Source: an uncultured Christensenellaceae bacterium (lineage in GTDB: Bacteria; Bacillota; Clostridia; Christensenellales; UBA3700). Taken from it: a stretch of DNA of 64,000 bases. Below, one piece after another: positions 55,306-58,202 of this stretch (position 1 is the stretch's first letter; each line of letters opens with the position of its first letter). The stretch lies in assembly GCA_944383895.1 (NCBI GenBank), contig CALWRH010000002.1:62001-126000 (forward strand), given 5' to 3'. The position numbers and the translations under genes were made by a program. The notes under the pieces are model-generated. The model did no database searches and was not told the DNA's origin. It saw nothing but the letters and a program-made list of their open reading frames with translations.

Positions 55306-55337
55306 CTATATAACAAAGCTGAAATGATTTTTACCAA
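55306..55337 (-). promoter_or_regulatory. Promoter element shared with the ECF sigma gene (copy A)
   Basis: On the minus strand TTGGTAAAAAT then, with the same 23-base distance as in copy B, GTTATATAG. It lies upstream of the 54272-55276 lipoprotein. Confidence 0.65.
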
Positions 55338-55421
55338 AGCTTTATAAAAAAATTCTGAAACAAGTTAAAAAAGTTCAGGATATAATTAAAAGGGGAGATG
55401 GCGTTAAGACATTTTTCAGCG

Positions 55422-55450
55422 TTGACACACGTCGGATGTGCCATTATAAT
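55422..55450 (+). promoter_or_regulatory. Promoter of the MmcQ/YjbR gene
   Basis: TTGACA, 17-nt spacer, TATAAT. Confidence 0.92.
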
Positions 55451-55479
55451 GTAGACGTATAATTAAGGAGGCGAAACCA

Positions 55480-55830
55480 ATGGACTCGGGGCAGCTTATT
55501 TCGTATTGTCTGCAGAAACAAGACGCATATGAAGATTTCCCTTTCGGAGACGGTTATATCGTCATCAAAATAAAGTCTGAGAAAAAACCTAAAGGCGTAA
55601 TATTTGCTGAAATATTTACTCTCAACGGAGAAGAAAAATTCACTTTCGGCACGGACAGCGAAACGGCAGAGTTTCTCAGAGGTTTCTATCCGGACGTCGT
55701 AGTGAGAGGTTATCATTGTCCTCCCGTGCAGGCGAGATACAAGAGTACGGCAACACTCGGCAGACTTGACGACGAAACGGTTGTAAAACTCGTCGATCTC
55801 TCGTATGCTCGGGCATTGACGAAATTGTGA
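55480..55830 (+). CDS. MmcQ/YjbR-family protein
   Basis: 116 residues, the normal size for this family (CyaY-like fold). F-P-F-G-D near residue 21 and the C-terminal pattern Y-H-C-P-P...D-L-S-Y-x-x-A fit. Members are small cytoplasmic proteins annotated as DNA-binding; their function is not settled. AAGGAGG precedes the ATG. The gene converges on the GNAT gene with only 2 bases between stops and no terminator. Confidence 0.85.
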   Translation: MDSGQLISYCLQKQDAYEDFPFGDGYIVIKIKSEKKPKGVIFAEIFTLNGEEKFTFGTDSETAEFLRGFYPDVVVRGYHCPPVQARYKSTATLGRLDDETVVKLVDLSYARALTKL

Positions 55831-55832
55831 TT

Positions 55833-56255
55833 TCAGAGCGACTGACGGTTCAGTCGCTTTTCCATTTTGAAATTTATAAGAAGTTCGCCGTTTCTTGCTA
55901 CCTGTTGCATGAGAGTTGTCTGATAGCCGAGTTTTTCGAAAAAGGGCTTGGCTGTAACAGACGCTTCGACAAATGAAAGATCGCATAAAAAGCTGTCTTC
56001 CGCGTCTTTTACGAGCATAGAGCCGATGCCTTTGCCTTCATGCCCCGGCATGACGTACAGTCTGTCTATATGACCGCTGTCTTCGCAGTCGCAGAAACCG
56101 ACTATTTTTCCGTTCTCTATTGCTACGGTCGTGTGCCTTGACGCAAACTCGCGTTCCCATTTAGCTTTGTCGGCACAGTTCAGCCAGGCGCTGATCTGAG
56201 CAGGAGTGTAGTCCTTTTTGCAAAGCGTGCTTATGGACTCTCTGAAGACGTGCAA
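55833..56255 (-). CDS. GNAT N-acetyltransferase, N-terminus likely frameshifted
   Basis: 140 residues from TTG at 56255. The acetyl-CoA loop reads H-E-G-K-G-I-G-S near residue 73, preceded by D-R-L-Y-V-M-P-G as usual, so the core is intact; substrate unknown. The family's first strand is missing. Directly upstream a run of seven G (56265-56259, minus strand) separates this frame from one encoding R-R-Y-I-P-S-D-I-G, the expected N-terminus; with six G the two would join. No good start or ribosome-binding site is visible on either side, so the gene may be defective or mis-sequenced. Confidence 0.75.
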   Translation of the reverse strand: MHVFRESISTLCKKDYTPAQISAWLNCADKAKWEREFASRHTTVAIENGKIVGFCDCEDSGHIDRLYVMPGHEGKGIGSMLVKDAEDSFLCDLSFVEASVTAKPFFEKLGYQTTLMQQVARNGELLINFKMEKRLNRQSL

Positions 56256-56317
56256 TATCCCCCCCGATGTCCGAGGGGATATATCTTCGTAAAGTTACGT
56301 TGCCAAAATTCGGTTTA

Positions 56318-57526
56318 TCAATCGTCATAAAGCTCTTCTAAAAATTCTTCCCAATAGTCTTCGTCTTCTTCGGGATCTGCGAGGCTCTCGTAGTAGTCTT
56401 CGATAAGATCGGCGAGTATTTCGCAGCCTTCTTTATCCGTATGGTTTTTTACGGTTTGTCTGAACGCGTCTATCTCTTGTTCTGTTTTGCCTTCGGCGTG
56501 CAATCTGTTTTCTATGATCTTGTCGGATTCTTCGTACATCCAGGCGTCGAGAATATTTTTGAGGTCGCGTCTGTTCTGTCTGCCGATCTCTTTGAGCCTG
56601 TATTCTTCCTCTTTAGCCAGGCTTTTTGCCTCTTTTGCAGAGAGTCCGTCAAGTATAAGCTTGTATTCGTACACCTCTATATAGCTTTCGAGATGTTCTT
56701 CGAGTTCTTCTCCGAGCGGTTTCAAGGTCTGTTCCTTCCATTTGTCTATGACGTCTTCCATGACGTCGTCGTCAAAGCCCTGTTTTTCGAGTTCTTCTTC
56801 CCACATTTCTTCGAGCGCGTCGAGTTCCTGTTCTTTGGTTATGTCGTACTGTTTGAGAAGTCTGTGCAGTTCGAGCACGGTTTTTTCGTCAAGACCGTCC
56901 GTCTGTCCGTATGCGGCGATTATATCGTCGATGAGCTGCTGTTTTGCCTCTTCTCCGTCTTCGGTAACTATCGTGCCGCCGCTTTCGGTGACAACGGACG
57001 ATACGTTTGCCGCAAGCTCTGACAGATATTGTCCGCTTATTGCAGAGTCTTCGTTGTAAGCAAGGATGTTGACCTGACTGTTGTTTGCGTTGACGTAGCC
57101 GAGCTTTACAGACGTCGTGATTATGTCGGAGCAGACGTCGTAGACAGAGCCGCCGATATAATTTTTGCCGAGCAGGACGATCCTTGCGTCGCTGTTGAGT
57201 CCCGTGACTGATTTTACTGAGCCGTTTTCGTCCGCGAGGACTTCAAAAGACGGATTTATGTCGATAAGGAACAGAGTGTCGGATTTGTTTTCTGCCGTAA
57301 TATTTCCTTTTTCTTTCGTTGACGGCCATGTGAAAATCAAGGTAAGCGCAAGTGCCAGAACGAGTACGCAGGCGACTGCGGACATGGCGAACGCAAGACC
57401 TCTTTTTGACTTCGCACGCTTGGGCTGAGGAGCAGGGAAGAGTTGCCCTTTGATTTTCTCTTTGAGTTGTTCGTCAGGGAGCAGTCTGTCCGCGTCTTTT
57501 TTCAGATCTTTGGATATTCTGTTCAT
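56318..57526 (-). CDS. RsgI-type anti-sigma factor
   Basis: 402 residues from the ATG at 57526 (AGGAGG upstream; ATGA overlap with the sigma gene stop). A cytoplasmic N-terminal part (about 1-40), one membrane segment (about 48-72), then the RsgI-like extracytoplasmic domain with L-I-D-I-N-P-S-F-E-V near 95 and N-S-D-A-R-I. The last ~200 residues are very rich in Glu, Lys and Leu with long predicted helices and acidic ends. It should hold the ECF sigma factor inactive until an outside signal arrives. Confidence 0.85.
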   Translation of the reverse strand: MNRISKDLKKDADRLLPDEQLKEKIKGQLFPAPQPKRAKSKRGLAFAMSAVACVLVLALALTLIFTWPSTKEKGNITAENKSDTLFLIDINPSFEVLADENGSVKSVTGLNSDARIVLLGKNYIGGSVYDVCSDIITTSVKLGYVNANNSQVNILAYNEDSAISGQYLSELAANVSSVVTESGGTIVTEDGEEAKQQLIDDIIAAYGQTDGLDEKTVLELHRLLKQYDITKEQELDALEEMWEEELEKQGFDDDVMEDVIDKWKEQTLKPLGEELEEHLESYIEVYEYKLILDGLSAKEAKSLAKEEEYRLKEIGRQNRRDLKNILDAWMYEESDKIIENRLHAEGKTEQEIDAFRQTVKNHTDKEGCEILADLIEDYYESLADPEEDEDYWEEFLEELYDD

Positions 57527-58056
57527 TTTACTCCTCCTTTGAGGTGTCTGCTCAGCAAATTCAACGATTGCTTTAATCTGTAAGACACCGTCGATATAGG
57601 CAGATCGAGAGCTTTTGCCGCCTCTCTTCGTCTGTATCCCGCTATCGCGCACATTATGACGATCTTATAATCCGTTTCGTCAAGAAGACTTTTTGCGAGA
57701 GATATGAGCCCGAAACTGTCTTCGTCCGGCATTGAGAAATCGCCTTCTCTCAGATGTTCGTCGGTTGAAAAATCCGTTGCGGTCTGACGTTTTGCGCGAT
57801 TGTATTCGTTGAGAGCCGTATTTCTCGCGATAGTCGTTATCCATGCGGTAAAGTTGTCTGCATTGTATCCATCAATGTTGCTGACCGCTTTCAGGTAAGT
57901 GTCCTGCACGACGTCTTCGGCAGCGTGTTTGTTGCCGAGGATCCCGTAGGCGACGAAGAACACGACTTTATAAGTCGTATCGTAGATATAATCGAACGCC
58001 CGGCTGTCACCTTCTTTGAGCCTCAGCACGGCTTTTTCCAACGCTTTGTCTGACAT
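57523..58056 (-). CDS. ECF-type RNA polymerase sigma factor
   Basis: 177 residues. Region 2 (A-A-E-D-V-V-Q-D-T-Y-L-K-A near residue 48) contacts the polymerase and the -10 box; region 4 (R-R-E-A-A-K-A-L-D-L-P-I-S-T-V-S-Y-R-L) near 145 recognises the -35. It is translationally coupled to the anti-sigma gene. Its promoter ends only seven bases before the ATG and shares a 32-base element with that of a lipoprotein gene at 54.3-55.3 kb, suggesting autoregulation. Confidence 0.92.
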   Translation of the reverse strand: MSDKALEKAVLRLKEGDSRAFDYIYDTTYKVVFFVAYGILGNKHAAEDVVQDTYLKAVSNIDGYNADNFTAWITTIARNTALNEYNRAKRQTATDFSTDEHLREGDFSMPDEDSFGLISLAKSLLDETDYKIVIMCAIAGYRRREAAKALDLPISTVSYRLKQSLNLLSRHLKGGVK

Positions 58057-58063
58057 CTTTCAC

Positions 58064-58095
58064 CTATATAACAATTTCAGAAAAATATTTGCCAA
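58064..58095 (-). promoter_or_regulatory. Promoter element of the ECF sigma gene (copy B)
   Basis: On the minus strand TTGGCAAATAT then GTTATATAG at the same distance as in copy A (55306-55337), followed by similar GA-rich bases. It also fits a sigma-A promoter (TTGGCA-N18-TTATAT). Confidence 0.65.
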
Positions 58096-58202
58096 CTTTT
58101 CCGATAATTTTATGATAAATTATTTGTGGATTATAGTCAAGAGAGATTGAAGACAGAGAGTTTGTATTTGATATAACAAGAGAAATACATGTCGGATCGT
58201 AT

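Follow-up and report, generated by a model that had tools for sequence, protein, structure and literature searches.

The question raised by this locus is why a gene for an ECF sigma factor and a gene for a lipoprotein carry the same promoter-like element, and what the lipoprotein might do for the sigma factor that appears to control it. The window analysed here is a stretch of 64,000 nucleotides from the genome of an uncultured Christensenellaceae bacterium (genome G000). A preliminary description of this DNA had reported a 32-base element upstream of both genes on the minus strand, and had proposed that the same sigma factor recognises both copies. Both copies lie exactly there, with the two blocks 23 bases apart from first base to first base in each of them (Table 1). 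The copy before the sigma gene (58095-58064, minus strand; G000:C2:120064-120095) reads TTGGCAAATAT...GTTATATAG, and the copy before the lipoprotein gene (55337-55306, minus strand; G000:C2:117306-117337) reads TTGGTAAAAAT...GTTATATAG. The further remark that GA-rich bases follow the element was loose; the sigma copy leaves only 7 bases before the ATG. Taken as a whole, the observation was confirmed and is stronger than had been claimed.

Table 1. Features of the window discussed in the text (predicted from sequence)
Feature	Position	Strand	Remarks
Lipoprotein of family X, 334 aa	54272..55276	-	lipobox LVAC at residues 22-25; without Pfam or NCBIfam match
Second ECF-type promoter copy, before the lipoprotein gene	55306..55337	-	-35 TTGGTAAAA (55337-55329), -10 TTGTTATATA (55316-55307)
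Membrane anti-sigma factor, 402 aa	56318..57526	-	cytoplasmic N-terminus, one transmembrane helix, RsgI_M ectodomain (N91-P92), helical C-terminal part
ECF sigma factor, 177 aa	57523..58056	-	regions 2 and 4; recognition helix STVSYRLKQSL
First ECF-type promoter copy, before the sigma operon	58064..58095	-	-35 TTGGCAAA (58095-58088), -10 TTGTTATATA (58074-58065)
Sigma-A-type promoter, upstream of the ECF promoter	58112..58140	-	TTGACT-N17-TATCAT; in 12/12 genomes compared

A chance resemblance of the two copies was ruled out by a genome scan, by random stretches and by a scan of the family. The strict element pattern matched twice in the whole genome of 1,847,687 bases, both times at these two sites, and the reversed pattern used as control gave 0 matches in the same genome. 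The two copies are identical at 17 of 19 informative positions, which were picked after the motif had been seen; when the sigma upstream region was compared with 2969 random window stretches, the top agreement was 15/19. The genus of G000 was sampled as 13 genomes; in named collections, its near relatives were Candidatus Ornithoclostridium and MAGs of uncultured Christensenellaceae. A close orthologue of the sigma factor (77-100% identity) is present in 8 of the 13, and a more distant one in four genomes of genus g5. All 24 promoters of these 12 genomes fit TTGGYAAAA-N12-TTGTTWTATA; the -35 block deviates at one position at most, and deviations within the -10 block are few. On the sigma side the element begins 39 nt before the ATG in all 12 genomes; on the lipoprotein side it begins about 60-61 nt before the ATG, with a normal GGAGG-like site between. 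The conserved bipartite element before the sigma operon is a candidate for an autoregulated promoter of the ECF kind.

When the consensus was searched in 46 genomes of the family with one mismatch allowed, 26 matches were obtained and 26/26 lay at this sigma gene or at the lipoprotein gene, the 12 genomes contributing two apiece and G011 and G019 one apiece; the reversed pattern gave 2 matches in the same genomes. In G019 and G011 the match precedes the lipoprotein gene, and the sigma gene was not found in G011, whose genome is 81% complete. Within the 13 genus genomes, again at one mismatch, 17 of 18 matches were sigma or lipoprotein sites and the sole other was at G006:C42. A larger regulon was considered and rejected, since at up to two mismatches in the same 13 genomes the extra matches stayed at the level of the reversed-pattern control; a shorter element pattern was likewise at control level except for the exact sites. 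The preliminary description had named frequent occurrence before housekeeping genes as the sign of a sigma-A promoter, and the genome and family scans found no such frequency. Because all family matches lie at the sigma or the lipoprotein gene, the regulon would comprise two transcription units, one with the sigma and anti-sigma genes and one with the lipoprotein gene. Comparison of the genomes makes promoter sharing by the sigma operon and the lipoprotein gene well supported, and a minimal ECF regulon of the sigma/anti-sigma operon and one lipoprotein is likely. A stress-type sigma factor of a gut bacterium appears to switch on its own operon and one surface lipoprotein only. The small regulon suggested earlier is in this way supported by comparative genomics, and a tandem promoter, a conserved cassette and the lipoprotein's kinship with anti-sigma ectodomains are added to it below.

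Which sigma factor reads the element was judged from the -35 sequences of 58 distinct loci holding both genes, leaving out L203 (a duplicate of L143) and L171 (without the lipoprotein). In a first scoring of promoter pairs at 31 loci, the same-locus mean was 16.0/19, the cross-group mean 14.3, and shuffles (n=620) gave a mean of 13.1 and a maximum of 16. Some of the best-scoring pairs were AT-rich runs (e.g. L140), and the class table was therefore made by eye afterwards. Both promoters had the same -35 class in 40/58 loci, namely 15 TTGG-type pairs (the window, L063-L069, L110-L113, L119, L169, L202) and 25 CCAA-type pairs (L072-L078, L120, L135, L138, L140, L143, L145, L186-L188, L190, L192-L194, L197-L200, L204), a few of them with one deviating base in one copy (e.g. 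L119 TTGT, L192 TCAA, L194 CCGA). In region 4, the recognition helix carries Y in 15/15 TTGG-type and W in 25/25 CCAA-type loci, counts that come from loci related by descent and do not stand for independent events. Both promoters of the relatives thus switch together to CCAAYAAA when the helix residue changes from Y to W, and the classes TTGGYAAAA and CCAAYAAA track the helix across genera and families. The class was mixed in 6/58 loci (L114, L115, L117, L118, L195, L205), all with W, and no promoter pair was recognised in 12/58. Cassette locus L120, where the anti-sigma profile search gave no hit, and a second ECF system of the genome, whose anti-sigma factor is of RsgI_M type, both show CCAAT, so the -35 class follows the helix and not the type of anti-sigma factor. 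On this comparative basis the element is very probably recognised by the ECF sigma factor of the window. As a separate observation, the genus g2 exceptions (L114, L115, L117, L118) have a sigma promoter of CCAAC/TTAAC/TTGAC type and a lipoprotein promoter of TTGGT/TTAGC type, and their -10 (TTGTA) is common to both promoters.

The element might instead be an ordinary sigma-A promoter (TTGGCA / TATATA). The sigma-A consensus has TTGACA at -35, from which TTGGCA is one base off, and TATATA is near its -10. However, the spacing would be 19, the element occurs exactly only twice in the genome, the conserved bases include some not read by sigma-A (GYAAAA, TTGTT), and the -35 varies in step with the recognition helix of the ECF sigma factor. 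Moreover, a separate promoter, TTGACW-N17/18-TATCAT, stands directly upstream of the sigma-side ECF element in 12/12 genomes, which argues against the element itself being the sigma-A promoter. The separate promoter and the conserved non-sigma-A bases ruled out sigma-A as the main reading, and we regard it as very improbable. No sigma-A-type site was found before the lipoprotein gene in the same 12 genomes. This arrangement suggests basal expression of the sigma and anti-sigma factors and not of the lipoprotein. As the sigma element of the window ends so close to the ATG, the ECF transcript should begin almost at the start codon; it may be almost leaderless whereas the sigma-A transcript would have a leader, a possible translational difference. 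A-tracts and T-tracts (AAAAATTTTT-like) precede the lipoprotein promoters, upstream of 55337 in the window and at the same place in relatives across genera; they may serve as an upstream promoter element or as the preceding gene's terminator.

The sigma factor has regions 2 and 4 only, as ECF sigma factors do. It scored 57.8 bits with Sigma70_r2 (cut-off 24) and 71 bits with TIGR02937 (cut-off 42.9), and 23.8 bits with Sigma70_r4_2, slightly below the cut-off of 25.7. A third ECF-like sigma gene of the genome (G000:C10:69703-70214) is apparently broken, with two weak matches in separate open frames. The anti-sigma gene lies directly downstream of the window's sigma gene and overlaps it, and its product has one transmembrane helix and an ectodomain, as is usual for a partner of an ECF sigma factor. 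This ectodomain matches PF23750 RsgI_M with 56.4 bits (cut-off 25.3), and DINPSFE is unchanged in 11/11 homologues. The anti-sigma profile matches solved RsgI chains that start exactly at the aligned Pro of the NP motif, and the structure model (pLDDT 68) matches the RsgI structures 8t9n and 8hdj in Foldseek. The central, putatively self-cleaving domain of RsgI with its NP motif is therefore present. The N-terminal sigma-binding domain of RsgI is a separate Pfam family, for which no match was found at E up to 0.01; RsgI_M alone was listed. In addition, the partner gene encodes an ECF sigma factor and not SigI. Because of this partner and because the N-terminal domain was not found, we do not class the protein as RsgI, but judging from sequence and model its ectodomain would work in an RsgI-like way.

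The lipoprotein has a signal peptide, a lipobox and a putative lipid-attachment Cys in its sequence, and Cys25 is invariant in 14 lipoproteins (A2). Its domain, which we call X, gave no Pfam or NCBIfam hit for any member scanned, nor a sequence match to solved structures at E up to 1. The model (pLDDT 74.7), viewed with the half-barrel of RseB/LolA-like lipid-binding proteins in mind, is helical at the N-terminus and continues as a long beta meander. Foldseek gave no significant fold match (best E 0.063), comparison with the VIA rows reached up to Z 9.4, with barrels at rmsd 5-6, and the structures of RseB and LolA were absent among the fold matches shown. That X is a remote relative of RsgI_M was also considered and rejected by profile comparison (probability 2.5%). 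The domain was found in 84/396 genomes searched in the order Christensenellales (36/142 genera), and none was found on plasmids. In 40 further X loci outside the family, hand-chosen from the list of 84 genomes, a sigma gene was nearby in 28/40, and no sigma gene was present within the ~3-4 kb read in 12/40 (L166, L167, L170, L172-L174, L177, L179, L180, L182, L184, L196). X usually, not always, belongs to a sigma cassette.

In the relatives, the sigma factor, the anti-sigma factor and the X lipoprotein occur together in 4/4 loci of g5, in four of g2, two of g3 and two of g4; the fifth g2 locus (L116), on a contig of 3.4 kb, shows only the lipoprotein. A different arrangement, the clade-2 cassette, was found in four genomes of the genus (G001, G004, G006 and G008) and in other Clostridia contigs: here X is the ectodomain of the anti-sigma factor, and an X lipoprotein follows. 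X and RsgI_M thus interchange as anti-sigma ectodomains beside the same lipoprotein partner. A tree built from 28 lipoproteins together with 10 ectodomains parts the two groups by one branch (support 99/97), so a single duplication or fusion suffices. The genome itself holds the second ECF system already mentioned (G000:C6), in which the anti-sigma factor and the lipoprotein both carry RsgI_M; these two and the anti-sigma factor of the window are the only three RsgI_M proteins found in the genome. This system also has a duplicated promoter of its own, CCAATAAA-N13-TTGTTTAATA, before both the anti-sigma and the lipoprotein units. With one mismatch, the same pattern has three sites on one contig, not two, in G004:C10 and in G008:C25.

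As the best explanation of the whole, with a probability of about 0.6, we propose an autoregulated ECF circuit in which the lipoprotein feeds back on sensing. The element would be the target promoter of the sigma factor of the window, and the sigma-A promoter would keep both the sigma and the anti-sigma factor at a basal level. On the outer side of the membrane, a signal would act on the RsgI_M ectodomain, which is probably self-cleaved at N91-P92, and intramembrane proteolysis would then destroy the anti-sigma factor. Two clear M50-type proteases, as needed for intramembrane cleavage, are encoded in the genome; a third M50 match is short and dependent on its neighbours in the frame. The freed sigma factor would transcribe its own operon and one other gene, that of the X lipoprotein, which may in turn act back on sensing at the anti-sigma ectodomain, either by occupying the ligand or the protease or by binding the ectodomain, and would so damp or gate the response. 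For this feedback role the chances seem to us about even. It is the most likely role because X lipoproteins are homologous to the anti-sigma ectodomains of sister systems, and damping seems more probable than co-sensing, since no basal promoter is visible before the lipoprotein gene. Profile comparison found no homology between the window's lipoprotein and its anti-sigma ectodomain, which leaves the sister systems as the basis for the argument from mimicry, and the simple idea that the lipoprotein is a copy of its own sensor was rejected here. The orphan X loci and the mixed and unpaired promoters count against the proposed circuit.

The lipoprotein could also be an effector, e.g. a protective or binding surface protein with no regulatory effect on the sigma factor; its resemblance to ectodomains would then reflect a shared ligand only. 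ECF sigma factors often control envelope proteins, the lipoprotein is the only other target in 12/12 genomes, and some X lipoproteins stand alone, with no sigma gene nearby, all of which would suit an output. However, the clade-2 anti-sigma ectodomain is X itself, and the lipoprotein of the second system has the RsgI_M domain of its anti-sigma factor; both exceed what an ordinary effector needs, and we consider this reading unlikely. Alternatively, the lipoprotein could be a co-sensor, taking up the signal and handing it on to the anti-sigma ectodomain, autoregulation then being positive feedback and not damping. The interchange of X and RsgI_M as ectodomains beside the same lipoprotein partner is what would be expected if X can act on the input side. 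Yet the near-absence of the protein before induction, suggested by the lack of a sigma-A-type promoter before its gene in 12/12 genomes, would be odd for a primary sensor, and co-sensing appears less probable still than a pure output.

Compared with known systems, the circuit shares with SigI/RsgI of Clostridium thermocellum and Bacillus subtilis the RsgI central domain and the putative self-cleaving NP motif of the anti-sigma factor. It differs in the ECF type of its sigma factor, in an anti-sigma factor without a Pfam-detected N-terminal RsgI domain and with a helical C-terminal part instead of a carbohydrate-binding module, and in the predicted addition of a sigma-controlled lipoprotein partner. 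RseB/MucB of the sigma-E pathway in E. coli and Pseudomonas is an extracytoplasmic protein whose target is the ectodomain of an anti-sigma factor in the membrane, and the likeness would be in this proposed role only; RseB is soluble and belongs to the periplasm of Gram-negative bacteria, unlike the predicted lipoprotein of the window. For C. thermocellum, one report describes cleavage of RsgI in the membrane by RseP and degradation of the released piece by ClpXP (PMC12203970). By analogy, CseA of Streptomyces may be the nearest functional parallel for the X lipoprotein. In the S. coelicolor sigma-E operon this extracytoplasmic lipoprotein is encoded with an ECF sigma factor, and its loss is reported to raise sigE promoter activity, contact with a sensor ectodomain being suggested (PMC6767563). 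According to the same report, however, signals reach the CseA system through a two-component sensor, an anti-sigma factor is lacking, and sigma-E does not target the sigE promoter (PMC6767563). In the literature, no pairing of this kind for RsgI or for an anti-sigma factor and a lipoprotein was found by title or by the start of the abstract, and an earlier description is possible.

Beyond this locus, we suggest only tentatively that ECF circuits of Christensenellales carry a dedicated third part, a sigma-induced lipoprotein drawn from the anti-sigma ectodomain families (X or RsgI_M) and placed under a duplicated sigma promoter, which would set the gain as an external mimic of the receptor. If this is true, two promoters and three proteins would make a compact and portable sigma circuit, a lipoprotein that imitates anti-sigma sensors would mean that transmembrane signalling can have its gain set in a novel manner, and domain family X would gain a testable role.

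A minor observation concerns the GNAT acetyltransferase gene that adjoins the anti-sigma gene. It has an apparent frameshift, possibly an assembly error, near its start (window 56255-56328, minus strand), at a run of seven G (56265-56259), and the listed frame starts at a TTG about 20 codons late; the homologues in L063, L065, L066 and L068 are 157-165 aa long.
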